64,000 nt of DNA from Oscillospiraceae bacterium. Lineage in GTDB: Bacteria; Bacillota; Clostridia; Oscillospirales; Oscillospiraceae. This document shows, one piece after another, positions 348-59,863 of this stretch (position 1 is the first letter of the stretch; every line of letters begins with the position of its first letter). The stretch covers positions 124,001 through 188,000 of the forward strand of contig JAFQFA010000002.1 in assembly GCA_017398725.1 (NCBI GenBank), written 5' to 3'. The notes beneath the pieces are model-generated. The model had not been told where the DNA came from. It did not search any database and saw only the letters and a list, made by a program, of their open reading frames with translations. The position numbers and the translations under genes are program-made.

Positions 348-1211
348 ATGAAAAAAGCTTGGAAGTATATCCCAATGGTTGCCAAAATCCTGTTGGGATG
401 CGCATTGTTTGGTTTGGGTTTTAATCTTTTTTTGGTGCCTAACGGGCTTAATGCCGGCGGTATTTCGGGCCTTTCCATGCTTTTTGTCAGATTGACCAAT
501 ATCGGCACGATCGGTTTGGTGACGGCAATCGTAAATTTGCCGCTGTTTGCGTTGGGTGGTCTGAAGATCGGGAAGAAGTTTTTCTTTGGATCTCTGTTTG
601 GCATGCTTTTGTCTTCCACATTTATTGATGTGTTTTCCGCACTTCCGATTCCTGAAACTGAACCGCTGGTGGGAGCTATCTATGGTGGTGTTCTGTGCGG
701 CCTAGGTGGGGGACTGGTGTTTTCTCAGGGTGCATCCACCGGTGGTTCGGATATTATTGTCAGGCTTCTGAAGCTGAAATGGCAGAATGTACCCATTGGC
801 ACGATTACCATGACCTTTGATCTTGCTGTGGTGGCCTTAACCGGTTTGGTTTTCCGGAATATCGGTGTGTCTTTGTACAGTGGCGTTGCTATTTATATTA
901 CCGGACAAATCATTGATGCGGTTGTATATCGCTTTGATTATTCCAAAGTTGCGTTGATTGTGAGCCGTGAGCACGACCGGATCGCAGCCTGCATTGCCCA
1001 TAAGTTAGAGCGCGGTGTTACCTTTCTGGAAGGAGAGGGATATTACACCGGCAACCAGACAAAAGTGGTTCTTACTGCGGTGAAAAAACAGCAGCTTGCA
1101 GAACTGAAGAAATTGGTTGCCGAAATCGATCCGGATGCCTTTATCATTGTGCAGGAGGCCCATCAAGTACTGGGAGACGGTTTTTCCAGATACTCCCGGG
1201 AGTCCTTGTGA
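348..1211 (+). CDS. YitT family membrane protein (DUF161 + DUF2179)
   Basis: A 287-residue protein with about five hydrophobic segments in the first 200 residues, including a glycine-rich stretch (GGVLCGLGGGLVFSQGASTGG) typical of the YitT/DUF161 fold. A soluble C-terminal DUF2179 domain (about residues 205-285) contains the family phrase EGEGYYTGNQTKVVL. Family members are inner-membrane proteins of poorly known function, possibly transporters. The ATG at 348 was chosen because GGAGG lies 5-9 bases upstream; an upstream in-frame ATG at 303 would overlap the topoisomerase gene and has no ribosome site. The lipoprotein gene follows 15 bases later. Confidence 0.88.
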   Translation: MKKAWKYIPMVAKILLGCALFGLGFNLFLVPNGLNAGGISGLSMLFVRLTNIGTIGLVTAIVNLPLFALGGLKIGKKFFFGSLFGMLLSSTFIDVFSALPIPETEPLVGAIYGGVLCGLGGGLVFSQGASTGGSDIIVRLLKLKWQNVPIGTITMTFDLAVVALTGLVFRNIGVSLYSGVAIYITGQIIDAVVYRFDYSKVALIVSREHDRIAACIAHKLERGVTFLEGEGYYTGNQTKVVLTAVKKQQLAELKKLVAEIDPDAFIIVQEAHQVLGDGFSRYSRESL

Positions 1212-42321: not shown

Positions 42322-42337
42322 AACAAAAAATAAAATA

Positions 42338-42522
42338 GCGCTGTGAACGGAAAGAGTAACGGTCTTTATCCTACAGAGAGTTCAAGCCATTGGCTGTAAG
42401 CTTGAGCGGTGTCGGGCCGGGAAAGTGCATCCGGGAGCGCATTGGTTTTTGAGTTAGAAATGAGAGTGGAACCGCGAGTTGTTTGACCCGCCTCTTGTGC
42501 ATTGCGCAAGAGGTGTTTTTTA
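42338..42522 (+). ncRNA. T-box leader (tRNA-Cys-sensing riboswitch) upstream of cysS
   Basis: A complete T-box. Stem I opens with GCGCT (42338) and closes with AGCGC (42436-42440). The S-turn AGTA lies opposite a specifier loop GGAAAGTGCA whose triplet TGC (42426-42428) is a Cys codon. The apical GAGAG loop is present. The T-box sequence AGAGTGGAACCGCG (42463-42476) holds the TGGA bulge, which would pair with a tRNA whose discriminator is U, as in tRNA-Cys. The terminator is CCTCTTGTGC / GCGCAAGAGG with a run of T (to 42522). Uncharged tRNA-Cys would prevent termination. The leader occupies most of the 345-base gap. Confidence 0.95.
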
Positions 42523-42551
42523 TTTAAAATTCATACATGGAGGAAAATTTT

Positions 42552-43967
42552 ATGTATCTTTATAATTCTCTGTCACACAAAAAAGAACTGTTCCAACCCA
42601 ATTCTCCGGATGTTGTAAAAATGTATACATGTGGTCCGACTGTTTATCATTATGCGCATATTGGCAACCTGCGGACTTATATTATGGAGGACGTACTTGA
42701 AAAGTCCCTTCGTTACATGGGCTATCATGTTAAGCGCGTCATGAACATCACGGATGTGGGCCACTTAGCATCCGATGCCGATACCGGTGAGGATAAGATG
42801 CTCAAGGGTGCAAAGCGAGAGAATAAGTCTGTCATGGAAATTGCCCAGTATTACACAGATGCATTTTTTGCTGATTGCAAAAAGCTCAATATTACGAAGC
42901 CTGAGATCGTGCAGCCCGCTACCGGCTGCATCCCGGAGTTTATCCGCATGGTAGAAGGGCTTCTGGAGAAGGGCTTTGCCTATGTTGCGGGCGGAAATGT
43001 GTATTTTGACACTTCCAAGCTGGAAAAATATTATGTTTTCAACGACCATGACGAGGAAGATCTCGCCATTGGCGTCCGTGAGGGCGTAGAGGAAGATACG
43101 AATAAGCGTAATAAGAATGACTTCGTTCTTTGGTTCACAAAATCCAAGTTTGAGGATCAGGCTCTTAAGTGGGAATCCCCTTGGGGTATTGGATACCCCG
43201 GATGGCATATTGAGTGCTCCGGCATTTCTATGAAATATTTGGGTGAGGATCTGGATATCCATGCCGGCGGTATTGATAATGCGTTCCCGCATCATACCAA
43301 CGAAATTGCCCAGTCTGAAAGCTTTATCGGCCATAAGTGGTGCAATTACTGGTTCCATGTGCATCACCTGAACAATGAAAGCGGTAAGATGTCCAAGTCC
43401 AAGGGCGAATTTTTGACCGTAAGTCTTTTGGAAGAAAAGGGCTATGATCCCATGGCGTACCGTCTGTTCTGCCTGCAGAGCCACTATCGACGCAATCTTG
43501 TATTTAGTTGGGAGAATTTGGATAATGCCGCACAGGCTTATCAGAAGCTTGTAGCAAAGATTGCCACGCTGGAAGATAAGGGCGATGTGGATACTGCTGC
43601 GTTGGAGAGCTTGAAGGAGCGCTTTGCCGGCGCACTGAACGGCGACTTGAACACATCTCTGGCAGTGACTGCACTGTATGATGTGTTGAAGGCCAAAACG
43701 ACCGATGCAACAAAGCTTGCCGCCATTGCGGATTTTGAACAGGTGCTTTGCCTGAACCTTTTGCAGGCAGCCAAATTGCTGCGGGATAAGCAGGCCGAAG
43801 AAGCTGCTGCCTCTGCCGATCCGGAGATCGATGCATTGGTGGAAGCCAGAACGGTTGCCAAGAAAGCAAAGAATTATGCAGAAGCTGACCGTATTCGTGA
43901 TGAACTGAAAGCTCGGGGTATTGAGATCATTGATACACCCCAAGGTGCAAAGTGGAGAAAAGTATGA
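42552..43967 (+). CDS. cysS: Cysteinyl-tRNA synthetase
   Basis: A 471-residue class I synthetase that charges tRNA-Cys. It shows TCGPTVYHYAHIGNLRTYI (HIGH motif with zinc Cys), the KKL-containing body, zinc ligands in GWHIECSGISMKYLGEDLDIHAGG and PHHTNE, and KMSKSKG. The C-terminal helical part ends with the DALIA-like KAKNYAEADRIRDELKARGI. ATG 42552 has GGAGG eight bases upstream; an in-frame ATG 15 bases before is less fit. The upstream T-box controls it by tRNA-Cys charging. polA overlaps its stop by four bases. Confidence 0.98.
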   Translation: MYLYNSLSHKKELFQPNSPDVVKMYTCGPTVYHYAHIGNLRTYIMEDVLEKSLRYMGYHVKRVMNITDVGHLASDADTGEDKMLKGAKRENKSVMEIAQYYTDAFFADCKKLNITKPEIVQPATGCIPEFIRMVEGLLEKGFAYVAGGNVYFDTSKLEKYYVFNDHDEEDLAIGVREGVEEDTNKRNKNDFVLWFTKSKFEDQALKWESPWGIGYPGWHIECSGISMKYLGEDLDIHAGGIDNAFPHHTNEIAQSESFIGHKWCNYWFHVHHLNNESGKMSKSKGEFLTVSLLEEKGYDPMAYRLFCLQSHYRRNLVFSWENLDNAAQAYQKLVAKIATLEDKGDVDTAALESLKERFAGALNGDLNTSLAVTALYDVLKAKTTDATKLAAIADFEQVLCLNLLQAAKLLRDKQAEEAAASADPEIDALVEARTVAKKAKNYAEADRIRDELKARGIEIIDTPQGAKWRKV

Positions 43968-48740: not shown

Positions 48741-48773
48741 AACCGGTGCAGTTTGAACTGCACCGGTTTTTAT
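48739..48773. terminator. Bidirectional terminator between the acetyltransferase and the aro operon
   Basis: A long perfect inverted repeat AAAACCGGTGCAGT / ACTGCACCGGTTTT with a TTGA loop, flanked by T and A runs on the two strands. Confidence 0.92.
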
Positions 48774-49204
48774 TACGATTTATTATTTACTAAATATTCG
48801 ATTGCCTGTCTGTAGCCGTCCAAGCCTTGGCCTTTGATTGTGTGCGCGCAGGCAAGACCTGCATAGGAGATCTGGCGAAAGGCTTCCCGGGAATCCACAT
48901 CGGAAATATGCACCTCTACAGCCGGTATGGATACCGATTTTAAAGCATCCAGAATCGCGATGGATGTGTGTGTATATGCTGCCGGATTAATAACGATACC
49001 TTCATATACACCGTAGGCCTGTTGGATCTTGTCAACGATATAGCCTTCATGATTGGATTGATATTGATCGACCTGAATATTCAAATCAGCAGCCGTTTTA
49101 TCCAACAACGCCAGCAGGTCATGGAAGGTATTTGCTCCGTAAATGCCGGGTTCCCGTATGCCCAGCATATTGATGTTGGGACCGTTGATTACAAGGATCT
49201 TCAT
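48773..49204 (-). CDS. aroQ: 3-dehydroquinate dehydratase, type II
   Basis: A 143-residue type II dehydroquinase, third step of the shikimate pathway. Family signatures: LVINGPNINMLGIREPGIYG with the catalytic Tyr, QSNHEGYIVDKI, NPAAYTHTSIAI and VEVHISDVDSREAFR with the catalytic His. It is the last gene of the operon. Its ATG shares one base with the stop of the aroE-aroK gene, with AAAGGAG upstream. Confidence 0.97.
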   Translation of the reverse strand: MKILVINGPNINMLGIREPGIYGANTFHDLLALLDKTAADLNIQVDQYQSNHEGYIVDKIQQAYGVYEGIVINPAAYTHTSIAILDALKSVSIPAVEVHISDVDSREAFRQISYAGLACAHTIKGQGLDGYRQAIEYLVNNKS

Positions 49205-50430
49205 TATGTCTTCTCCTTTTCAAAATACCGGAGGATCTCCTGAACAGTGGACATCGGGTCGGTGTTATTGTCCACAGAACAATCGCTAAATTTCTGATAT
49301 AGCGGACGCCGGTGCATATACATGTCCTCCATGGTATTTACTTGAGACAATGGACGACCGTCAACAGCTAAATTGCGGATATTGCGTTGCAGCCAAATGA
49401 TTTTTCCGTTTTGGTGCAAAAGGGGGTAGTTTTCCGGACGGGTAACGCATCCACCACCGGTCGAGATCACAGCGCCGGATATCTTGCAGATCTCAGATAG
49501 AACCTGCGTTTCCAGTGACCGAAATCCGGGTTCTCCTTGTGTGGCAAAGATTTCGGGAATGGAGATTCCGGCTTTTTCTTCTATGATCCGGTCCGCATCC
49601 ATAAAGGGACGGTTTAATTTTTGAGCTAGCAGTGAACCAACGGTTGTTTTACCACAACCCGGCATGCCAATTAGAATAATGTTTTCCATCTCAAAACAGA
49701 TGCAGTGGTGAATCCTTTGAATGACTTGATATGGAATGTGTTTGCCGGTAAACCATTCGGAGCTTTCTTTGGCCTGTGCGACAAGCATCCACAAACCGTT
49801 TTCGCAGGGAATATTCCGCCGCTGGGCTTGCTGAAGCAGCTGCGTGTTTGCGGGATTGTAGATTAGATCAAGAACACAGGAAAGACTGTCAAATTTATCC
49901 AACGAAAGGATTGATTCCTCAGTCTCTGGATACATACCCACTGGGGTTGCATTCACAATAATCGCTGCATCAGAGTGGCGGTCCAAATTTTGATAGTTGT
50001 CAGGTCCGGATCTGGAAACGGTAACAACACGGGCCCCCATTTCTGTTAAAACAGCAACGGCAGTTGCTGATGCACCACCGCTACCAAGCACCAAGGCTTT
50101 CTTTCCGGTGACAGAGATACCACATTTTTCTATCATGGATTGAAAACCAAAGTAATCGGTATTGTGACCAATCAGTTTTCCGTTTTTCCGAACCAATGTA
50201 TTTACAGCGCCCAGCTGTTTTGCTCGTGGCGACAGTTCGTCACAATAATCGATCACGGCCTTTTTATAAGGGATCGTTACATTTAAGCCGTCAAAATCGC
50301 TTTTTGTTAAAAAGGATTCCAAATCTTCCGGTTCAACTTCATACAGGTTGTATCTGTAATCACCCAAGGAAGCATGAATTTGCGGAGAGTAACTGTGGGA
50401 CAGTTTTCTGCCTAGCAAACCGCATTGCAT
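49204..50430 (-). CDS. Fused shikimate dehydrogenase - shikimate kinase
   Basis: A 408-residue bifunctional protein. Residues 1-245 are AroE: GLLGRKLSHSYSPQIH, the catalytic VTIPYKKAVI (Lys), GAVNTLV, NTDYFGF and the nucleotide-binding LGSGGASATAVAV. From about residue 249 the chain restarts as AroK: MENIILIGMPGCGKTTVGSLL (Walker A), DADRIIEEKAGISIPEIF and STGGGCVTR, ending near 408. It thus reduces dehydroshikimate and phosphorylates shikimate in one chain. Fusions of this pair occur in some clostridia. I see no strong ribosome site at the internal Met. Start ATG 50430 directly follows the pheA stop. Confidence 0.95.
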   Translation of the reverse strand: MQCGLLGRKLSHSYSPQIHASLGDYRYNLYEVEPEDLESFLTKSDFDGLNVTIPYKKAVIDYCDELSPRAKQLGAVNTLVRKNGKLIGHNTDYFGFQSMIEKCGISVTGKKALVLGSGGASATAVAVLTEMGARVVTVSRSGPDNYQNLDRHSDAAIIVNATPVGMYPETEESILSLDKFDSLSCVLDLIYNPANTQLLQQAQRRNIPCENGLWMLVAQAKESSEWFTGKHIPYQVIQRIHHCICFEMENIILIGMPGCGKTTVGSLLAQKLNRPFMDADRIIEEKAGISIPEIFATQGEPGFRSLETQVLSEICKISGAVISTGGGCVTRPENYPLLHQNGKIIWLQRNIRNLAVDGRPLSQVNTMEDMYMHRRPLYQKFSDCSVDNNTDPMSTVQEILRYFEKEKT

Positions 50431-51573
50431 TTAAACCACCTCTGAGTAGCTTCCCAAATATTTGAACTCTTCGCACAGGTCATCGAGCTCACACATAAGC
50501 TGCACAAATTCTTCTGAATAGATAGAAGTCTCCAAATCAAAGTAGAACATGAATTCAAAATCCCGGTCGGGAAGCGGACGAGATTCCAGCTTGATCACAT
50601 TAATGCCCAATACATACATCCGCGCAAGAACTTTATACAACGCACCGGGCTTATGGGGGAGGATCATCATGATGCTTGTCTTATCGGCACCGGGGTAAAT
50701 CTCCAAATTTTTGCTGATGCAAATGAAACGGGTTCGGTTATTGCCTTCATCTTGAATGGAAACAGCGAGGCAGGAAAGACCGTATAACTCCTCGCAGGCA
50801 TGGCTGGAAATTGCAGCCACATCACTACGCAGAGATTTTGATACCATTTCAGCTGCAACAGCGGTATTCTCAACAGGGATAATTTTGGCGTTGGGCATTT
50901 TCTTGAGGAATTCGCCGCATTGATTGATTGCTTGCTCGTGGGAATAAATTTCGGTTATATTTTCCAGCTTTGTTCCGGGCTTTGCTAAAAGATTATGATC
51001 GATCTTTAAGCGGAATGTGCGGACAATGGAGAAATTATGGTGAATCATCAGGTCGTAGACCTTCTTAACAGAGCCGGCAGTCGAATTTTCGATTGGGAGA
51101 ATGCCGTATTGGCACAGCCCCTGCTCGATCGCATGAAACACACCGTCAAAATTCTTAAAATACATGATCATAGGCGCCTTGAATATTTTTTCGCATGCGA
51201 TCTGCGCGTAGGCACCTTCTACGCCCTGACAGGCAACCATTGGTGTTTGAGGAAACAGCTTTGGCGTATTTTCAATAGAGTCGGTAATCTTACTGTAAAG
51301 TTTGGTTGTTTCTGTGGTGCGCTTTTGCTGGTAACTTCTGCTTAACTCAAAGAGCATGGAATAGAGTACACGCGTATAATTTGCCATTTCCGGACCGGCT
51401 TTTTGCGCAACACTTTGCAGCACTTCCCGTTCTCTGGCGGGTACAAAAATCGGGAGATTGTTTTCTTTTTTGTAATCCGCGACTTGTGCGGCAATCTCCA
51501 TACGTGCGGTAAAAAGTTTAACAAGATCAGTGTCGATCTTGTCTATTTCTTTTCGCAATTCATTCAAATCCAT
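50431..51573 (-). CDS. pheA: Bifunctional chorismate mutase / prephenate dehydratase (P-protein)
   Basis: A 380-residue enzyme that turns chorismate to prephenate and then phenylpyruvate. Residues 1-85: chorismate mutase (AroQ fold, LRKEIDKIDTDLVKLFTAR). Residues about 113-290: dehydratase (ACQGVEGAYAQIAC, ILPIENSTAGSV, DEGNNRTRF with the TRF motif). Residues about 300-375: ACT domain with KLESRPLPDRDFEF, the ESRP motif that senses Phe in relatives, so feedback by Phe is expected. ATG 51573 with GGAG eight bases upstream is preferred to the GTG at 51582. Confidence 0.97.
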   Translation of the reverse strand: MDLNELRKEIDKIDTDLVKLFTARMEIAAQVADYKKENNLPIFVPAREREVLQSVAQKAGPEMANYTRVLYSMLFELSRSYQQKRTTETTKLYSKITDSIENTPKLFPQTPMVACQGVEGAYAQIACEKIFKAPMIMYFKNFDGVFHAIEQGLCQYGILPIENSTAGSVKKVYDLMIHHNFSIVRTFRLKIDHNLLAKPGTKLENITEIYSHEQAINQCGEFLKKMPNAKIIPVENTAVAAEMVSKSLRSDVAAISSHACEELYGLSCLAVSIQDEGNNRTRFICISKNLEIYPGADKTSIMMILPHKPGALYKVLARMYVLGINVIKLESRPLPDRDFEFMFYFDLETSIYSEEFVQLMCELDDLCEEFKYLGSYSEVV

Positions 51574-51585
51574 AGCTATCACTCC

Positions 51586-52656
51586 TTACTTTGCCTGCAG
51601 CAATGCATCATATACGGCAATCGCTGCAGCAGCCTCCACCACCGGAACGGCTCTGGGTACAATGCATGGATCGTGGCGACCTTTTACCTCAAGCATTCGA
51701 CTGCATTGGCCGGAAAGGGAAATGCTTTCCTGCGACTTTGCAATAGACGGTGTGGGCTTGACAGCTGCACGGAACAGGATCGGCATTCCGTTGCTGATGC
51801 CGCCAAGGATGCCGCCGGCATTGTTTGTTTTCGTTCGAACAGTTCCGTCCGTAATTGTAAATGGATCATTGTTTTGGCTGCCCATCATAGCGGCACTCTG
51901 AAAACCGGATCCAAATTCAACACCCTTAATGCCGGGAATCCCGAAAATGATCTTTGCAATGCGTCCTTCCATTCCATCGAACATGGGATCACCCACACCG
52001 GCAGATAATCCTGTAACAGCGCATTCGATGATGCCGCCAACACTGTCGCCGTTTTCCTTTGCTTCGAGGATGGCTTGGCGCATCTTATGTCCCATTTGGG
52101 TGTTTAGAACAGGGAAATCATGATGAACGTTATTGAGTTCAGGCGCAACAGGATCAAAGGCGTCATCTTTGATGTTCGCAATTTGTGCGATATGCGCACT
52201 GACAAAAATCCCTTGTTGTTCCAGCCATTGTTTACACATGCCGCCGGCAATACATAAAGGTGCCGTCAATCGCCCGGAAAAATGTCCGCCACCGGCAACA
52301 TCCTGATATCCGCCGTATTTTACGCTTGCCGTATAATCTGCATGTCCGGGACGTGGACAATCTTTTAATTGCATGTAGTCACCGGAACGGGTGTTTGTGT
52401 TGCGTATCAGCGCAGCAATGGGGGCACCACAGGTGTAGCCGTCAACAATGCCGGAAAGAATCTCCGGCCTGTCCTCTTCTTTTCTGGGGGTGGAAATATC
52501 TCCCTGACCCGGTGCCCGTCGGTTTAAAAAGACTTGCAACTGATTCATATCTACGGGCAGCCCCGCAGGAATGCCATCTAAAGTCATGCCGATTCCGGCA
52601 CCATGGGATTGCCCGAAAATGGAAAGACGCAGATTATCACCGTATGTACTGCTCAT
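51586..52656 (-). CDS. aroC: Chorismate synthase
   Basis: A 356-residue FMN enzyme that converts EPSP to chorismate. It shows IFGQSHGAGIGMTLDGIPAG, RRAPGQGDISTPRKEEDRPE, RPGHADYTASVKYGG, GGHFSGRLTAPLCIAGG and GGISNGMPILFRAAVKPTPSI. It starts at ATG 52656 with TAGGAGG five bases upstream, inside the last 20 bases of aroA. It is complete. Confidence 0.98.
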   Translation of the reverse strand: MSSTYGDNLRLSIFGQSHGAGIGMTLDGIPAGLPVDMNQLQVFLNRRAPGQGDISTPRKEEDRPEILSGIVDGYTCGAPIAALIRNTNTRSGDYMQLKDCPRPGHADYTASVKYGGYQDVAGGGHFSGRLTAPLCIAGGMCKQWLEQQGIFVSAHIAQIANIKDDAFDPVAPELNNVHHDFPVLNTQMGHKMRQAILEAKENGDSVGGIIECAVTGLSAGVGDPMFDGMEGRIAKIIFGIPGIKGVEFGSGFQSAAMMGSQNNDPFTITDGTVRTKTNNAGGILGGISNGMPILFRAAVKPTPSIAKSQESISLSGQCSRMLEVKGRHDPCIVPRAVPVVEAAAAIAVYDALLQAK

Positions 52657-53836
52657 AGTGACCTCCTAAGCGACGAAACTCATTCCAAAAGGATGGGTAG
52701 GATTTTTTGACGCAATCTGCGCCAAGAATCGTGACCGGATCAGATGCGACAGTTGCAGCGATCGCTGTGGCCATTGCAATTCTGTGATCGTTAGCCGAAT
52801 CAACGATACATCCGGAAAATCTCCCACCGGGGATATGCATAGAGTGCTCGGTTGCATCTGCATGTATACCCATTCCATGGAGCATGTCCAATACAGTCTG
52901 AACGCGGTCGGACTCTTTCAGCCGCAGTCGGCTGATTTGATGAAATGTTGCACCATGAAAGTGGGCAGCCACAACGCTAAGAATGGGTACAAGATCCGGA
53001 ATGTCTTTGCAATAAACTGTGGTATTTGTTTTCGTTAAAGAAGAAAATATTTCCTTACAAGCTATATCCCCTTGCAAGGAAGCGTGGTTCAAACCCTCAA
53101 CCTGCACTTGATTGCCAAGGCAACTTGCCGCAAGGAAAAATGCGGCGTTACTCCAGTCACCCTCAACGGTATATGAACCGGGGCTACTGAAAGGCAAACT
53201 ACCTTTTAGATTCAAATCTTGCGTGTTTACACCGAACTGCTGCATAACCTGCTGGGTCATACGAATGTAGGGAAGCGATTCAATATCACCGGTAATATGG
53301 ATCTGGGAGTCTCCGTGAATCAAAGGCAACGCGAGCAGTAATCCTGTAATGAACTGGCTGGATACACCACCGTCAATATAATATGTGCCGGCGGATAGTT
53401 TTCCTTGGCAACGGATCGTATTATCTGTCGGGCGGGAAAGACGGCAGCCCATTCGTTCCATTTCTTCCCATAAAGGGGATAGAGGACGGTTGGGAAGTCT
53501 GCCTGACAACTGAAATGTTACATCTATGCCGAGTGCGCCGGCAACCGGCAGCATAAAGCGTAGTGTAGAGCCGCTTTCCCGGCAATCCAGTTTGGCTGTT
53601 TGTGGGAATTGCTTGATTGGGTGCACAATGAAGCCGGCCTGTGTTCGCTGGATCGTGGCACCTAATTCCTGTAAACACAAGGCGGTTGCCTCGATGTCTT
53701 CATTCAGTTGGTTGCAGATAATCGTTGTATTACGATCTGCAAATGCGGCGCAGATCAGGGCGCGGTGGGCCTGTGACTTGGATGCAATGGCCTCGATTGT
53801 GCCTTTTAATAAACCCGGATATACGGTGATGTCCAT
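52637..53836 (-). CDS. aroA: 3-phosphoshikimate 1-carboxyvinyltransferase (EPSP synthase)
   Basis: A 399-residue enzyme that adds the enolpyruvyl group of PEP to shikimate-3-phosphate. It has SKSQAHRALI (PEP/S3P site), ESGSTLRFMLPVAGAL, GGVSSQFITGLLLALP, DIESLPYIRMTQQVM, VEGDWSNAAFFLAA, RLKESDRVQT and NDHRIAMATAIAA. It is somewhat short of the 430 residues of the E. coli enzyme but complete. It begins two bases after the aroB stop and overlaps aroC by 20 bases. Confidence 0.97.
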   Translation of the reverse strand: MDITVYPGLLKGTIEAIASKSQAHRALICAAFADRNTTIICNQLNEDIEATALCLQELGATIQRTQAGFIVHPIKQFPQTAKLDCRESGSTLRFMLPVAGALGIDVTFQLSGRLPNRPLSPLWEEMERMGCRLSRPTDNTIRCQGKLSAGTYYIDGGVSSQFITGLLLALPLIHGDSQIHITGDIESLPYIRMTQQVMQQFGVNTQDLNLKGSLPFSSPGSYTVEGDWSNAAFFLAASCLGNQVQVEGLNHASLQGDIACKEIFSSLTKTNTTVYCKDIPDLVPILSVVAAHFHGATFHQISRLRLKESDRVQTVLDMLHGMGIHADATEHSMHIPGGRFSGCIVDSANDHRIAMATAIAATVASDPVTILGADCVKKSYPSFWNEFRRLGGHYEQYIR

Positions 53837-53838
53837 AA

Positions 53839-54891
53839 TTATAGACCTGCTTCAATAATAGTTTCTAATTGGTTAATGGCAGTTGGGGAAATTATACAAT
53901 TTCCAATTTCTTTTGGAATAATGAGATTGACTGTGCTGCCGGCTCGTTTTTTGTCAGAAAGAGCACAGTTAAATAATTGTGATGCGGTGTAGTCTGTTGT
54001 GATTGGCAGCTTAAAGCGAGTAAGAAGATTTGTGATCCGCTGACATGTGTTGCTGCTGCAAATACCCATAGATTGGGCAGCTCTTGCAATAATCGCAATG
54101 CCGGTACTAACGGCTTGCCCGTGACTGATGGAAAAGCGACTGGAAGTCTCTATGCCGTGACCAATGGTGTGCCCCAAATTCAGCTTTTGCCGACTGCCGC
54201 GATCAAATTCATCCTCTGCAACGACATCCCGCTTCCATTCAACACATCGGGTAACGACAGACAAACGATCAAAGAGTAAGCCGTATGCTTCCAAATGAGA
54301 AAATAGTTTCTCATCATATAAAATACCGTATTTAATAACCTCGGCACAGCCATCACAAAAAATCGATTCGGGCAGAGTGGAGAGGGTGTTAATATCACAC
54401 AGCACCAAATCCGGCTGATAAAAAGCACCGACCAGATTTTTCCCGGTAGGAAGATCAATGGCTGTTTTCCCGCCCACAGAGGAATCTACCATAGCCAGCA
54501 GTGTGGTTGGTACTTGAATGAACGCAATGCCTCTTAAATATGTTGCAGCCACAAAGCCGGTCATATCACCGACTACACCGCCGCCGAGTGCGATCAGTAT
54601 ATCTGACCTTGTCATGCCGGAGGATGCTAAAAAATTTAGAATTTCTAAGTAAGTATTGCTGTTTTTACTTGCTTCACCTGCATTGAAAACGAAGTGAATC
54701 ACTTCAAAACCTGCTTTTTCCATACTCTCGACAACTGTTTGCCCATATAGCGGCCATACATTACTGTCACTAATAACTGCGGCTTTAACAGCAGGGTGAA
54801 TGGAGGCTGCGCGGCTGCCAATATCTTTTAAAAGATCCGGTGCGATTTCTACAGTATATGATTTTGAAGCGCTGACAGACACATAGCTCAT
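53839..54891 (-). CDS. aroB: 3-dehydroquinate synthase
   Basis: A 350-residue NAD- and metal-dependent enzyme that closes the ring of DAHP to 3-dehydroquinate. Signatures: GGGVVGDMTGFVAATYLRG, QVPTTLLAMVDSSVGGKTAID, PTGKNLVGAF and the metal-site NLGHTIGHGIE. Length is normal. ATG 54891 overlaps the stop of the prephenate dehydrogenase gene by four bases. Confidence 0.98.
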   Translation of the reverse strand: MSYVSVSASKSYTVEIAPDLLKDIGSRAASIHPAVKAAVISDSNVWPLYGQTVVESMEKAGFEVIHFVFNAGEASKNSNTYLEILNFLASSGMTRSDILIALGGGVVGDMTGFVAATYLRGIAFIQVPTTLLAMVDSSVGGKTAIDLPTGKNLVGAFYQPDLVLCDINTLSTLPESIFCDGCAEVIKYGILYDEKLFSHLEAYGLLFDRLSVVTRCVEWKRDVVAEDEFDRGSRQKLNLGHTIGHGIETSSRFSISHGQAVSTGIAIIARAAQSMGICSSNTCQRITNLLTRFKLPITTDYTASQLFNCALSDKKRAGSTVNLIIPKEIGNCIISPTAINQLETIIEAGL

Positions 54892-55718
54892 CCGTCCACT
54901 TCCTCCTTGCGTTTTCTTCCTTCGTCTAAAAGGGAAATAAGATAATCTTCATTAGAATTTTCAATCGCCTCTTTATATGTTGTAAGACTTTCGATCAGAA
55001 TATCTAATTCATTTAAGAGATTTTTCCGGTTAGATAGGAAAAGCTCTGCCCACATTTGCGGATTCAGCCAAGCCACTCTGGTCAGATCCTTGTAGCTACC
55101 TGCCGAAAAGCCTTTATGAGACAATGCGGTAGGGGATTTAATAAATGCATTACTGATAATGTGAGGCATTTGCGATGTGAAAGCAATCATTGCATCGTGT
55201 TCTGCTGCTGTTGTTACGGAAAAAGAACGGAAACCGCATGGCTCCAGATGATCTTTCACCCGCTCCAGTAGTTCCGGGTCATCAAAACGGGGAGGAACGA
55301 TCACCATTGGCGCTCCTTGGAACATATTGGAGCGACTGTATTTGAATCCGGAATGGTGGGAACCTGCCATGGGATGGCCGCCAACAAAAGTAAATCCGTA
55401 CTGTTCTGCGAGGGGAAAGCATCTGCGACAAATTTCTTCCTTGATGCCGCAACAGTCCATCACGAGGGTGTTTTTACTGATCAGATGTGCATGGGCTTCC
55501 AACCAGTTTGCGGACGCCTCAGCATACACAGAAAGAAGGATCAAATCGCATGTAGAAATGTTTTCGGTATTTAGTTCACCAGCAACTGCTCCGGCAAGTT
55601 GTGCAAACAAAAGCATGCTTTGGTCTTTTTCGCAAGCGAGCACTTGGTGACCGGCTTTTGTATAGGCACGTGCCAATGAGCCTCCAATCAAACCAAGGCC
55701 AAGGATACCGACCGTCAT
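54888..55718 (-). CDS. tyrA: Prephenate dehydrogenase
   Basis: A 276-residue NAD(P)-dependent enzyme that makes hydroxyphenylpyruvate (the tyrosine branch). It has the Rossmann start GILGLGLIGGSLARAYTKAGH, FVGGHPMAGSHHSG with the catalytic His, and DLTRVA in the helical part. No ACT domain is present at the C terminus, so Tyr feedback by that route is not expected. Its ATG overlaps the DAHP synthase stop by four bases, with GGGAGG upstream. Confidence 0.95.
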   Translation of the reverse strand: MTVGILGLGLIGGSLARAYTKAGHQVLACEKDQSMLLFAQLAGAVAGELNTENISTCDLILLSVYAEASANWLEAHAHLISKNTLVMDCCGIKEEICRRCFPLAEQYGFTFVGGHPMAGSHHSGFKYSRSNMFQGAPMVIVPPRFDDPELLERVKDHLEPCGFRSFSVTTAAEHDAMIAFTSQMPHIISNAFIKSPTALSHKGFSAGSYKDLTRVAWLNPQMWAELFLSNRKNLLNELDILIESLTTYKEAIENSNEDYLISLLDEGRKRKEEVDG

Positions 55719-56716
55719 TTTATTGCCTCCCGTACGGTTTGGACTTTTTTGTTTAATGTTGCAAATTGATCGGGTGTTATGGATTGTGCGCCGTCACATA
55801 GGGCACATGTGGGGTCATTATGCACTTCCACCATAATGCCGTCAGCACCGCATGCAGCTGCTGCCAATGCCATGGAAGGAACCAAAGATGCTTTTCCGGT
55901 TGCGTGACTGGGATCCACAATAACGGGCAGATGGGTCAGGTTATGCAGGACCGGCACTGCAGAAAGGTCTAGTGTATTGCGGGTATATGTTTCATATGTG
56001 CGAATGCCACGCTCACAAAGAATGATGTTTTCGTTTCCTTCGCTCATGATGTATTCCGCGCTCATCAGAAGCTCTTGCAGGGTGTTTGCAAGTCCTCGTT
56101 TCAAAAGGATGGGCTTTTGGGTTTTTCCAAGCTCTTGCAAAAGGTCAAAGTTTTGCATATTTCTTGCGCCCACCTGAATAATGTCAACATCCTCAAAGAG
56201 CTCCAGAGAGCGTACATTCATGATTTCTGTAATGATCGGCATGCCGCTGACTTTCTTTGCTTCCGTGAGCATACGGATGCCCTCGTCTTTCAGACCTTGG
56301 AATGCGTAAGGGGAAGTGCGGGGCTTGAATGCGCCACCCCGAAGGATATCTGCACCGCCTGCTTTTACATCTAAAGCAATTTGTGTGATCTGATCCTGCG
56401 ATTCCACAGAACAGGGACCTGCGATCATCGCAAAGTTACCACCACCAATTTTGATGTCACCGATTTTGACAACCGTATCCGCGGGATGGAATTTTCGATT
56501 TGCCTGCTTGAATGGTTCGGATACACGTTTGACACTTTCAACGATTTCCAAGCTTGTCAAAAGCTCTGTGTCTAAACGACTTGTATCACCAACCAGACCC
56601 AATACAGTGATCTCTTTACCGGAAGAGACATGTACGTCCAAGTTCATGTTTTTTAACCAACGGATCAAATGCTCCCGTTGCTCGATGGTTGTTCCGCGCT
56701 TTAAAACTGCGATCAT
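55715..56716 (-). CDS. aroF: DAHP synthase, type I-beta, with N-terminal regulatory domain
   Basis: A 333-residue enzyme that condenses PEP and erythrose-4-phosphate, the entry of the shikimate pathway. Residues 1-70 are a ferredoxin-like (FL) domain that gives allosteric control in Thermotoga-type enzymes. The barrel (about 85-333) has AGPCSVESQDQI, LRGGAFKPRTSPYAFQG, PIITEIMNV, KPILLKRGLANTLQEL and VDPSHATGKASLV. It is the first enzyme gene. ATG 56716 has GGAGG eight bases upstream, right after the leader terminator. Frames open further upstream are part of the leader and not coding. Confidence 0.96.
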   Translation of the reverse strand: MIAVLKRGTTIEQREHLIRWLKNMNLDVHVSSGKEITVLGLVGDTSRLDTELLTSLEIVESVKRVSEPFKQANRKFHPADTVVKIGDIKIGGGNFAMIAGPCSVESQDQITQIALDVKAGGADILRGGAFKPRTSPYAFQGLKDEGIRMLTEAKKVSGMPIITEIMNVRSLELFEDVDIIQVGARNMQNFDLLQELGKTQKPILLKRGLANTLQELLMSAEYIMSEGNENIILCERGIRTYETYTRNTLDLSAVPVLHNLTHLPVIVDPSHATGKASLVPSMALAAAACGADGIMVEVHNDPTCALCDGAQSITPDQFATLNKKVQTVREAIK

Positions 56717-56728
56717 ACGATTACCTCC

Positions 56729-56763
56729 AAAAAGAATACCGCACAGAAAAAGCTTCTGTGCGG
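56729..56763 (-). terminator. Attenuator terminator before DAHP synthase
   Basis: On the minus strand: stem CCGCACAGAA / TTCTGTGCGG with loop GCTTT, then TATTCTTTTT. It ends 13 bases before the DAHP synthase ATG, so transcription of the operon must pass it. The 5' arm can also pair with AGCTGTTTGTGC (56795-56806) upstream, an antiterminator. Confidence 0.9.
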
Positions 56764-56804
56764 CAAAAATAACGGTTACGAAACTCTGCGAGCAGCACAA
56801 ACAG

Positions 56805-56835
56805 CTATTACTTTTTGTCGTTAAAAAAGTAATAG
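56805..56835 (-). promoter_or_regulatory. Leader hairpin overlapping the Phe/Tyr codons
   Basis: On the minus strand: a perfect 12-bp stem CTATTACTTTTT / AAAAAGTAATAG with a 7-base loop. Its left arm lies in codons 10-14 of the leader peptide and its right arm at the end codons and stop. It shares bases with the antiterminator segment at 56795-56806, so only one of them can form. Confidence 0.85.
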
Positions 56836-56864
56836 TAGTTATAGAACATAGCTGTGCAGATCAT
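56808..56864 (-). CDS. Aromatic amino-acid operon leader peptide (Phe/Tyr-rich)
   Basis: An 18-codon open frame, MICTAMFYNYYYFFNDKK, with three Phe and four Tyr in residues 7-14. GGAGG lies eight bases before its ATG, so it should be translated. It sits about 22 bases after a probable transcription start and precedes hairpins and a terminator. By analogy with trp and phe leader peptides, ribosomes stalling on Phe or Tyr codons under shortage would block the first hairpin and let the antiterminator form; fast passage would cover the antiterminator and allow termination. Confidence 0.88.
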   Translation of the reverse strand: MICTAMFYNYYYFFNDKK

Positions 56865-56892
56865 GGTTCGTTCCTCCAAGGAGTTTTTACAT

Positions 56893-56921
56893 ATTATAAC
56901 AACACATTTCAGGTTTTGCAA
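56893..56921 (-). promoter_or_regulatory. Promoter of the aromatic amino-acid operon
   Basis: On the minus strand: TTGCAA, a 17-base spacer and TATAAT, 29 bases before the leader peptide ATG. Confidence 0.85.
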
Positions 56922-56931
56922 GTACTAATTG

Positions 56932-56963
56932 AAAAAAGTAAGGGACCGCATTTGCGGTCCCTT
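56932..56963 (-). terminator. Terminator of the kinase-like gene
   Basis: On the minus strand: stem TAAGGGACCGCA / TGCGGTCCCTTA with a very short A-rich loop, then CTTTTTT. It lies directly upstream of the aro promoter, insulating the operon. Confidence 0.88.
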
Positions 56964-56968
56964 AGGAT

Positions 56969-59863
56969 TTAGTTTTTGATCTTGAAGTTCTGTTGACCGG
57001 CAATCATATCGTTAAAGTATACACTTACGGTATAATTACCTGCGTCCTTAGGAAGCTCGGGAAGATCAAATTCGCCATAACCCTTGTTCCACATATTCTT
57101 CCACTTTGTTTCCTGTGTGGAGAAGTTAACAACATTACCTTGAGTATCCCGGATCACATAGGTGATGAAGATCTTATTGGAGGATACACCATAGGTCTTG
57201 TTGATCGAAACAAGGAAGGAGGCTTTTTGGATGGATTTGAAAGTGGTTGTGTAGTCATGAGAGCCCAGATCACTCTTCGTCCAGTTGGACTTAGAGGGAG
57301 TACGGACCATCTTAAAGTTCATGTTGCTGCGTTTAACGGTATAGCCGCTGAAATCGGATGCCTTTTTGGCTTCGTACGTCAGCTTGCCGCCCACAACATC
57401 CATAGAATCGCCTGTAAGCAGTGTAAATGAGTATGTGCAATCTGGAATATAAGGTGTCAACTGCACAGAGTCAGCACTGGTAGACTTCACTTCTTTAACA
57501 GCGGATCCGTCGATGCTATATTGGAGGATCCAGCCGTTGGCGGGGGGATTTGTGCCATTCTTCCATGTGAGGGTCATTCCGGTGCTGTTTACCTTGGTTA
57601 CGGCAAAATCACTAATTGTTACAGCATTTTCGGGAATGTACAAACGAGGGCCGGTGCTCATTCCTGCGGCAGTGATTTCCACTGTGTAAGGATCGCTCAT
57701 TACTACGTTTTCAAAGGTTGCAGTTAATGTGTTAACGGCTAAAGTTACGTCATATCCTTTTTCATTGAAGCAATGAACGGTCCAACTGTCAACAGTCGCA
57801 TCCTTAGGCGCGCCCCAAGTAACAGTAAGCTTACCGTCTATAAAACTGGTAACGGCCGCGTTTTCTGCGTTAACAACTTTGGCAGCGGTGTAGGTGATTT
57901 TTGTATTGCCGGCGATCTGCCGTTCTTCCCCGGGCAGAAGCTCAAAGGTGTATTCCTTACCCACTGTCAAGCCGGTCATAGTGTAGCTGTGACCGCTGAA
58001 TGTGAACTCAGCATTTTCCTCATCCTGCGCGGACCGGCGGATGATCCAGTTCTCTGCATCTGGCCCCTCAATGTTGAAATGAATGACAGCGCTGCCATCT
58101 TCTGTGCCGGTAACAGCGCTAAGCTGTGCAATCGTGGTTAGCTGGGGTGTGGCATAGGATGCAGCGATCTGACCGGTTAAATCGTGGAAGCCGGAAATCA
58201 ACACTTTCACTGTGTATGCACAGTCAGGAGCGAGATCTTCAAAATATGCCTTGCCAGCTACAACAGGTGATTGCAGAAGATTACCGTAGGTGTCGTAGCA
58301 AACCACATTCAAAAGTTCTTCGTTTGCCTTGGTGTTTACATGAACCGTTAAAGTAAAATCCTCACCGTACAGATTCAGGGAATCAATTTGCTGCAGATAA
58401 TACATTTTGTAGAAGAGGAAACCTCCGGCTGCTAAGCAAAGAGCAAGTAGAATCAAAAGGGTATTGCGGACCCAATGAGACTTTTTCTTGGGTTCATAAT
58501 CAATAATGCCGTAGTCTTCAGCTTCGTATTTTTCTTGCTCTTCGGCTTGTTCCTCGTCTTCACCGGACACGGTTGCAGCGATCTGCTGGAGCATCTCGGC
58601 TTCTTCCAGTTCTTCCTGCAAGTTTTCGGGCTCGGCTTCCGATTCGGATGCATCATCTGTTTCTGCACATTCAGTTTCTACTGTTTCTTCAATGTTTTCC
58701 GGTTCAGGCAACTGCACCTCAACAAACTCCGGCGGGACAACAGGATCGGGAGCTGTGTGTGCAATAAGCTCGTCAGCCTGATTGAGCATGTCCGATACTT
58801 CTAAGGAAAGTTGCGTATAGTCGCCATCAACATCAGTGTCAGCTTCGGGGAGGGTTTCATCCGGAAGTTCCTCCGAGACTGTTTCAGCTATCTCGACAGG
58901 TGCAACAACATCAGTACCCGTTTCTTCTTCGGCTTCGTCGATTGCGGACTCTTCCTCGTTAACGAAAACGGAAGGGGGCGTAACAGGTGTGTCATGGGCA
59001 CCGTTTCGCTGCATATAACCAACGAGCGCCTGACCCATTTCAGCAGGATCCTGATAGCGGTCCTCGGGGTTTTTGGCACAGGCCTTGAGAATGATCTCTG
59101 CCATTTCATAATCGGCAAACTCGGGAGCAGGCAATTCTGTGCTGGAAGGGTCAGGTAACTGGCCACCATTGAATATCTGATACAGGATCAGACCGACAGC
59201 ATATACATCTACTGTTGTATTCATAGAAGCCAGCGGATCGGAAAGTTCCGGTGCAGTATATGCGCTGCGGTAGCGGTCGGGAAGCGATGCCCATTTCAGC
59301 GAATCTAATGGTATAAATCCAATATCGCCGATTTTAAAGCCCTTTTCGTCGTCCATATAGATGTTTTCCGGCTTTGTTGCAACGTAAAGAAATCCGGAGC
59401 GGCGGCACACGGATAGGGCAGAGCAGAGGTCAAGACCGAGGTTCAGAGCTTCCAGATGGGTAGGGGCATTTTTACTCCAGTGCCGTTCAAGGGTCTTGCG
59501 GTAGGGGCTAAGCAGGTATACATCGTACCCGCTTAAATCTTCAGATTCAACAATCTGTTTGCCGCTGTATCCAACAAAACCATCCATAGAAGATAGCTTT
59601 TCCAAAATTTCCGCTTCGCGAATAATTTCATGTGCTACACTTTTATAGTATTCCAGAGCCTGAGCGCGGTCTGTATAGGCGCCGGTCAACAGTAGAGCAT
59701 CCAGCTGTGCGGGGCTGGCTGGAGTGGAAATAATCTTGACAATGTACTTGTCTTCATTTTCCTGATCCATGGCGGGACATGTGCGAACACCCTTGCGGTC
59801 ACTGATGGGGTCACCCATAGCGAAATGATCCAGCAGGGGTGAAATCAGCTTCGGTTCTGACAA
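56969..59863 (-). CDS. Membrane-spanning protein-kinase-like protein (probable pseudokinase) with extracellular Fn3-like repeats
   Basis: A 964-residue protein. Residues about 10-285 are a Ser/Thr kinase fold: Lys43 of the VAIK position, LDLCSALSVCRRSG, KPENIY and a DIG motif at Asp180. The catalytic HRD Asp is replaced: YVATKPEN puts Ala162 there. An acidic disordered linker (about 300-465) leads to one membrane helix (about 468-490), then about 470 extracellular residues with beta repeats of fibronectin type III look (KLTVTWGAPKDATVDSWTV, GMTLTWKNGTNPPANGWIL). The start is TTG at 59863 with AAGGAGG upstream. A sensor that binds ATP without phosphorylation is the favoured reading; weak activity cannot be excluded. 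Confidence 0.8.
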   Translation of the reverse strand: MSEPKLISPLLDHFAMGDPISDRKGVRTCPAMDQENEDKYIVKIISTPASPAQLDALLLTGAYTDRAQALEYYKSVAHEIIREAEILEKLSSMDGFVGYSGKQIVESEDLSGYDVYLLSPYRKTLERHWSKNAPTHLEALNLGLDLCSALSVCRRSGFLYVATKPENIYMDDEKGFKIGDIGFIPLDSLKWASLPDRYRSAYTAPELSDPLASMNTTVDVYAVGLILYQIFNGGQLPDPSSTELPAPEFADYEMAEIILKACAKNPEDRYQDPAEMGQALVGYMQRNGAHDTPVTPPSVFVNEEESAIDEAEEETGTDVVAPVEIAETVSEELPDETLPEADTDVDGDYTQLSLEVSDMLNQADELIAHTAPDPVVPPEFVEVQLPEPENIEETVETECAETDDASESEAEPENLQEELEEAEMLQQIAATVSGEDEEQAEEQEKYEAEDYGIIDYEPKKKSHWVRNTLLILLALCLAAGGFLFYKMYYLQQIDSLNLYGEDFTLTVHVNTKANEELLNVVCYDTYGNLLQSPVVAGKAYFEDLAPDCAYTVKVLISGFHDLTGQIAASYATPQLTTIAQLSAVTGTEDGSAVIHFNIEGPDAENWIIRRSAQDEENAEFTFSGHSYTMTGLTVGKEYTFELLPGEERQIAGNTKITYTAAKVVNAENAAVTSFIDGKLTVTWGAPKDATVDSWTVHCFNEKGYDVTLAVNTLTATFENVVMSDPYTVEITAAGMSTGPRLYIPENAVTISDFAVTKVNSTGMTLTWKNGTNPPANGWILQYSIDGSAVKEVKSTSADSVQLTPYIPDCTYSFTLLTGDSMDVVGGKLTYEAKKASDFSGYTVKRSNMNFKMVRTPSKSNWTKSDLGSHDYTTTFKSIQKASFLVSINKTYGVSSNKIFITYVIRDTQGNVVNFSTQETKWKNMWNKGYGEFDLPELPKDAGNYTVSVYFNDMIAGQQNFKIKN

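Follow-up and report, generated by a model that had tools for sequence, protein, structure and literature searches.

The eight genes for aromatic amino-acid synthesis on the minus strand of the window (by which we mean the whole 64,000-nucleotide stretch of Oscillospiraceae DNA analysed here) would be controlled by a ribosome-mediated transcription attenuator that senses charged tRNA-Phe and tRNA-Tyr, a reading to which we give a probability of about 93%. The anatomy of the leader, its conservation, its mutually exclusive pairings and the match between codon content and gene product all come directly out of the computation.

The operon and its leader

As the first-pass annotation had proposed, these genes form an aromatic amino-acid operon, all eight of them being contiguous and confirmed by Pfam. 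In the direction of transcription they encode a DAHP synthase of the Bacillus subtilis type with an N-terminal ferredoxin-like domain (55715-56716; TIGR01361, PF18152), prephenate dehydrogenase (tyrA, 54888-55718), 3-dehydroquinate synthase (aroB, 53839-54891), EPSP synthase (aroA, 52637-53836), chorismate synthase (aroC, 51586-52656), chorismate mutase - prephenate dehydratase (pheA, 50431-51582), a shikimate dehydrogenase - shikimate kinase fusion (aroE-aroK, 49204-50430) and, last in the operon, a type II 3-dehydroquinate dehydratase (aroQ, 48773-49204). Together they lead from PEP plus erythrose 4-phosphate as far as prephenate, and on to the first Phe and Tyr steps. The Pfam assignments include genes for Phe and for Tyr but none for Trp; a search of the window's genome for trpE (PF04715), which might have come with a Trp leader, gave no match, a weak negative because this genome is only 66% complete. 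Public-contig loci with a 5-in-8 frame (five aromatic residues in eight) that extend 8.5 kb or more downstream number 42, and 16 of them have all eight homologues within 9 kb. Oscillibacter valericigenes Sjm18-20 (L154) has the leader and all eight genes, and Angelakisella massiliensis (L139) has the leader and 7/8, tyrA not being found there.

The gene upstream of the operon, whose ORF ends at 56969, is followed on the minus strand by an intrinsic-terminator-like hairpin (56964-56939), which suggests that a separate transcription unit begins here. Next comes a candidate sigma-70-type promoter, TTGCAA-17-TATAAT with a TG before the -10 (56921-56893); it matches the consensus at 10/12 positions, but a shuffled version of the 451-base region scanned contains, on average, 1.0 such sites, so that by itself the motif counts for little. 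A Shine-Dalgarno sequence, GGAGG (56877-56873), precedes a leader ORF of 18 codons (56864-56808) that reads ATG ATC TGC ACA GCT ATG TTC TAT AAC TAC TAT TAC TTT TTT AAC GAC AAA AAG TAA and encodes the peptide MICTAMFYNYYYFFNDKK. The putative sensor codons, Phe7 to Phe14 (56846-56823), are aromatic in 7/8 cases. Segment 1, CTATTACTTTTT (56835-56824), consists of Tyr and Phe codons and is the left arm of the 1:2 hairpin, which has 12 bp and lies over these codons; the right arm, AAAAAGTAATAG (56816-56805), includes the leader stop TAA (56810-56808). It runs into segment 2, the antiterminator strand AGCTGTTTGTGC (56806-56795), whose partner, segment 3 (GCACAGAAGCT, 56761-56751), lies in the 5' arm and loop of an intrinsic terminator of 13 pairs (56765-56737), which with its T tract (feature 56765-56729) stands just before DAHP synthase. 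The DAHP synthase start at 56716 is about 20 nt past the terminator stem. The promoter-like site, the GGAGG, the leader, the 12-bp hairpin, the antiterminator strand and the terminator had all been picked out in the first-pass annotation, and each was recovered base for base. The leader RNA as a whole (56892-56725, 168 nt) folds at -51.8 kcal/mol, as compared with -33.1 +/- 3.6 for its shuffles (z -5.3; 0/200 as low).

From this layout we infer a course of stalling, termination, read-through and response to Phe and Tyr. A ribosome would translate the 18-codon peptide behind the RNA polymerase that is transcribing the leader. Were charged tRNA-Tyr or tRNA-Phe scarce, the ribosome would stall on codons 7-14 and cover segment 1; segment 2, left free, would pair with segment 3 while segment 4 is still to be transcribed, no terminator would form and the eight genes would be transcribed. 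With both tRNAs charged, the ribosome would reach the UAA, where its footprint would mask segment 2, and the 3:4 terminator would end transcription about 20 nt before DAHP synthase. If there were no translation, 1:2 would form, leaving 3:4 free to do so, and termination would again be expected. The downstream footprint of a ribosome is 14 nt. Assuming this value, we predict that a ribosome with its A site at Tyr12 or Phe14 lets the nascent window RNA form 2:3, at -16.2 kcal/mol (the Phe14 position frees the strand from -95), and that 2:3 does not form with the A site on the stop. Since the full-length window RNA prefers the terminator even with segment 2 free, the switch would have to be kinetic, decided during transcription, as is usual for attenuators.

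Conservation of the leader peptide in the family

DAHP synthase was sought in 200 genomes of the window's family and matched at 1e-40 in 160 of them; 110 loci were taken in rank order, which places the weakest DAHP synthase matches outside the sample. With L032 and L033 dropped (contig ends), there remain 108 upstream regions (28 plus 80, the window included), among which two poor ones were kept: L113, with 344 bases only, and L116, whose start is not at a start codon. The first-pass annotation had pointed to such regions as the place to look for short frames with clustered Phe/Tyr and for covarying stems, and both were found there. A leader with at least 5/8 aromatic residues is present in 86/108 regions, with at least 6/8 in 69 and with at least 7/8 in 30; the corresponding counts are 4, 0 and 0 in the reverse complements and 4.2, 0.6 and 0 on average in dinucleotide shuffles. 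When all pairs of residues were scored at 6 in 8 in the first 60 regions, Phe plus Tyr came out at 52 and the next pair at 12. The aromatic run is confined to one frame (at least 6/8 in 69 of the 86 leaders, and 0 in both of the other frames), and a 5/6 match to AGGAGG before an in-frame start accompanies 43 of the 86 leaders of the family set, which includes the window, as against 8 expected.

The other 22/108 family regions have no 5-in-8 leader; several of these possess weaker F/Y/W-rich frames, a few are blank, and two (L014 and L016) seem, by eye, to lie directly downstream of another coding sequence. A T-box scan of 20 of these 22 found none. In one family locus (L114), the 761 bases upstream of DAHP synthase contain a lysine riboswitch (518-691, plus strand, 103 bits), on the strand opposite to the gene. 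Five others in the family (L107, L110, L112, L115 and L118) share a conserved GWARF...GFFG-like stretch, with Trp besides Phe/Tyr; such leaders might sense Phe, Tyr and Trp together.

Terminator and competing pairings

Between leader and gene, a hairpin of -15 kcal/mol or lower stands before a T tract in 85/86 loci, as opposed to 2.2 when those stretches are shuffled. If the energy limit is lifted, the rule is satisfied in 86/86 loci, but also in 69.8/86 shuffles, so that only the energy-limited count carries weight.

The two alternative helices were assessed by exchanging segments between loci. Over the 86 loci the best 1:2 duplex averages -17.5 kcal/mol with a locus's own partners and -13.0 with swapped ones; for 2:3 the values are -17.2 and -12.2, and in both cases 0/2000 permutations reach the own mean. 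Dinucleotide-shuffled segment 2 gives -10.4 (1:2) and -11.0 (2:3) kcal/mol. Measured against 50 shuffles of its own, a locus lies at or below the 5% mark in 67/86 cases for 1:2 and in 64/86 for 2:3; in the window itself, 2:3 (-16.4) beats 50/50 shuffles and 1:2 (-13.7) beats 96%.

An alignment of 20 loci tells much the same story for helices 1:2 and 3:4: standard pairs fill 96.8% of the cells, compared with 85.4% when partners are shuffled and 34-51% when the helices are slid, although the structure was derived from this same alignment and is therefore favoured over the slid versions. Both sides have changed in 11/22 pairs. One 1:2 pair is AU in 13/20 loci and UA in 7/20, the latter because a Tyr TAT there reads as Phe TTT and the facing base is altered to match. 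The 2:3 helix forms in 20/20 aligned loci (-12.8 to -23.9 kcal/mol) in spite of differing sequence; for example, AGCGCTTTGTGCTGCG pairs with AGCTGCACAGGGCGCG in L013, and AAGTGATTTCTGCTGCA with CGCAGTGAAATCACTG in L025. The swap, shuffle and alignment controls together support the first-pass view of overlapping, mutually exclusive 1:2, 2:3 and 3:4 pairings, which have been kept in evolution. Loss of either the leader or the stems from close relatives had been named there as the outcome that would speak against it; both are kept across the family, again with the swap and shuffle controls. The position of the leader stop is less constant. In the window it suits the masking of segment 2 by a terminating ribosome, but over the 86 loci it precedes segment 2 by up to 15 nt in 41, falls inside it in 13, follows it by up to 15 nt in 21 (75 in all near or within the segment) and lies further downstream in 11, so the details of the release step vary.

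These results bear on the possibility that the leader acts on translation, a stalled ribosome exposing the start site of DAHP synthase. Leader and first gene are indeed close, with 91 nt from the leader stop to the DAHP synthase ATG, but the strong hairpin before a T tract separates them in nearly every locus, and the DAHP synthase Shine-Dalgarno sequence of the window sits beyond the T tract, outside the terminator stem. We regard translational control as very improbable, if slightly less so than the other alternatives considered below, and return to attenuation of transcription.

Codon content and gene product

If the leader reports on charged tRNAs, its codons should reflect the product of the genes behind it, and separate pheA genes offer a comparison. 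Thirty prephenate dehydratase loci were collected from another family of the class, in one genus of which pheA is separate. A 4-in-8 frame occurs in 24/30; L304 and L305 were set aside as incidental (in L304 it is a 12-residue Trp/Tyr-rich upstream frame without Phe), leaving, by our reading, 22 leaders. These separate pheA leaders total 156 Phe, 13 Trp and 1 Tyr. As for the 8 remaining loci, six are of another sequence type or genus, and L303 and L304 lie inside an aroC-pheA-aroE cluster. In seven genomes both kinds of leader could be compared: their DAHP synthase leaders contain 21 Phe and 42 Tyr, whereas their pheA leaders contain 50 Phe and 0 Tyr. The Fisher value for this split is 2e-15, which overstates independence because the seven genomes are related. 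We consider this codon-to-product match the strongest support for the prediction that the window's leader senses Phe and Tyr, both of which depend there on the operon for their synthesis.

A leader with QAYYYLF precedes tyrS in two congeners only among 30 tyrosyl-tRNA synthetase loci, and the extension to tyrS rests on one genus, the motif being missing from the 28 other loci. In these two (L403 and L404, genus g450) the short leader ends in QAYYYLF plus one residue and lies about 170-270 nt upstream of tyrS. A hairpin comes after this leader, as seen in L265.

Spread beyond the family

Leaders of this sort are present in many relatives from the gut and the environment. A covariance model, R1, was built from the 20 aligned sequences. 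At an E value of 0.001 or better it matches 75/394 genomes of the order, 50/391 of the class and 7/398 of the phylum, in samples that overlap and that each contain the window's genome. Among the best 30 order loci, which include the window and several training sequences, 29 precede DAHP synthase and one, L227, precedes an ABC substrate-binding protein (PF04392). A further 19 class loci lead to DAHP synthase and then tyrA in 18 cases and to pheA in 1. Of 20 more, ten precede DAHP synthase, four pheA, one a PaaK-like ligase and one tyrS; L264, L271 and L274 look unrelated and L267 is without a clear target. Outside the class, the strong matches L307-L309 also have DAHP synthase and tyrA, while neither gene was found at the weak matches L310-L312; some weak R1 matches are probably due to chance.

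Two of these loci deserve a separate word. In L227 (G125:C1, around 1925360-1925532) a Phe/Tyr leader stands before the PF04392 substrate-binding protein, and its codons would predict a Phe/Tyr transporter. In L257 (G661:C158:10320-13500) a Phe/Tyr-rich leader at 495-590, with an attenuator, stands before the PaaK-like phenylacetate-CoA ligase, and by eye a protein resembling a tandem-ACT protein is also present; this leader might point to a pathway that makes Phe from phenylacetate. Aromatic leader frames were seen, too, on contigs titled Treponema (L175), Kiritimatiellae (L177) and Planctomycetaceae (L173), with DAHP synthases 60-70% identical to that of the window, a situation that reflects either transfer or wrong MAG labels.

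The leaders can also be read without R1. In the class sample, DAHP synthase has a match in 114/157 genomes and none in 43/157; 89 regions from 77 genomes were used (29 loci, plus 60 taken in rank order, the weakest matches being left out). A 5-in-8 aromatic leader is found in 53/89 regions (20/29 of the best-ranked and 33/60 of the others), a figure that is not a whole-class rate because the weakest matches are unsampled and 43/157 genomes have no match at all. Counted by genome, 53/77 have at least one leader. A controlled count over 350 nt finds 52/89 at 5 in 8 (shuffles 6.5, reverse complement 6) and 39/89 at 6 in 8 (1.2 and 0). Many distant class loci (L374, L381, L388, L398 and others) have a second type of leader with a conserved FSxGYFxC-like stretch; by eye, several of these have a TAATGAG-like strand that faces a CTCATTA in the terminator.

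T-boxes were sought at 20 of the 36 class loci without a 5-in-8 leader, L353 and L354, which have a 4-in-8 frame, being among them. In six of the 20 DAHP synthase loci a T-box was seen, oriented as the gene is; five of these pass the gathering score and the sixth narrowly misses it. The first-pass annotation had held that T-boxes or TRAP/TyrR-like systems usually govern this pathway in Clostridia; the rarity of a leader there was overstated, given the leaders in so many of the sampled DAHP synthase regions and the T-boxes in only some of the others.

A T-box, or another leader that binds tRNA or a metabolite, might nevertheless control the window's operon, with the short ORF there by accident. 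Besides the T-boxes upstream of DAHP synthase in those other genomes of the class, the window's own genome has 10 T-box matches, 5 of them above the Rfam cut-off, and one match in the window (42334-42498, plus strand, 59.4 bits with the gathering score at 93) lies ahead of cysS (42537-43967), so that this genome seems to use T-boxes and leader peptides side by side. Against such control of the aromatic operon, Rfam finds nothing in the window at gathering score except a tRNA, the T-box model (RF00230) has no match in 56600-57000 at E values up to 10, and conservation attaches to codons running in a single frame. Below threshold, the highest-scoring match in the correct orientation is the trpB motif RF04312 (27.1 bits, cut-off 59), which aligns end to end with 56858-56727 (E 0.045-0.09); we rejected it as a generic match to a hairpin plus terminator, because the genome has 22 such matches at E<=1 and this locus ranks sixth. 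We consider a T-box or similar leader very unlikely here. Equally so are constitutive hairpins next to a chance ORF or an unrelated small protein gene, with no regulation at all: short ORFs do arise often by chance and the regulation proposed here is a prediction from sequence, but the shuffle, reverse-complement and frame controls, the own-versus-swapped pairing, the way codon content tracks the product and the occurrence of leaders across the class all speak against them. The attenuator is thus left as the preferred reading.

Known leaders and what appears to be new

Attenuation by leader peptide is classical: pheA and pheST of E. coli have Phe leaders, and the trp attenuator is the prototype. 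The window resembles E. coli pheA and pheST in its clustered cognate codons, its three exclusive pairings and its terminator before the first gene; it differs from them in mixing Phe and Tyr codons and in having as its target eight genes that begin with DAHP synthase. The mechanism of leader attenuation in his operons is described in PMC9413887.

Some published leaders are closer to that of the window, as far as their descriptions allow a comparison. In Acholeplasma, uORFC-13-1 lies upstream of aroF, and its authors propose attenuation by a Phe uORF and a terminator (PMC8632094); as described there, it comprises 24 sequences, from Acholeplasma and environmental samples only, and at least one Phe is named and no Phe/Tyr run. 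In 2019 a pair of uORF candidates containing Phe and Tyr, close to shikimate genes, was shown (Fig. 6b of PMC6429828) among a set of five genomes, Clostridium novyi being one; going by their description they resemble the window in both respects and could overlap its family. Corynebacterium glutamicum, a member of the Actinobacteria, has an aroF leader with Phe-Tyr-Phe and a predicted attenuator (PMC4046766), which by its description is similar and belongs to one of two DAHP synthases.

Other Firmicutes leaders are reported to employ attenuation in place of T-boxes, for other amino acids or mixes of them and for other operons. His leaders are described from bacilli (PMC2965389) and also from certain Eubacteriales and Erysipelotrichales (PMC9413887); Lactococcus lactis has a Leu/phe leader (PMC2864571), and Staphylococcus aureus a Leu-rich attenuator peptide (PMC5794164). 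Tyrosine synthesis in the B. cereus group is described as being under T-box control (PMC2494555). The main text of PMC11109978 does not use the terms phenylalanine, tyrosine or leader peptide.

The first-pass statement that no Phe/Tyr leader of this kind had been described must consequently be toned down, as the shikimate uORFs and the Acholeplasma and C. glutamicum aroF leaders are in print. As to its narrower part, among the titles listed from open-licence PubMed Central papers we found no report of an entire shikimate operon under a Phe/Tyr leader, or of the spread of such leaders in Clostridia. The kind of mechanism is already known, and our reading of it here is, on the sequence, very probably right; what appears to be new, within the open-licence literature searched, is how widely it occurs in Clostridia, that its target is the full pathway and that its codons are tuned.

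Implications

It seems to us rather better than an even bet that Phe/Tyr leaders are the default aromatic regulator across Clostridia, where T-boxes have been assumed: a cis-only, codon-tuned regulon that alternates with T-boxes on the same gene. If this is true, the codon mix would follow the target, with Phe and Tyr for DAHP synthase operons and Phe alone for separate pheA genes, and the further targets would be served by Tyr codons for tyrS (in one genus) and by Phe/Tyr codons for the PaaK-like ligase and the ABC transporter (in single genomes). As the leader codons name the amino acid that would be sensed, they predict roles for the genes attached to them, such as the ABC transporter of L227 and the PaaK-like ligase of L257. 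The finding adds a leader family that has no Rfam model at threshold in the window and whose codon content shifts with the product. The alternation of T-box and leader on one gene invites the question of when a ribosome, and when a tRNA-binding RNA, senses the same shortage, and the whole would provide a testable account of how aromatic amino-acid synthesis is controlled in a large group of anaerobes.
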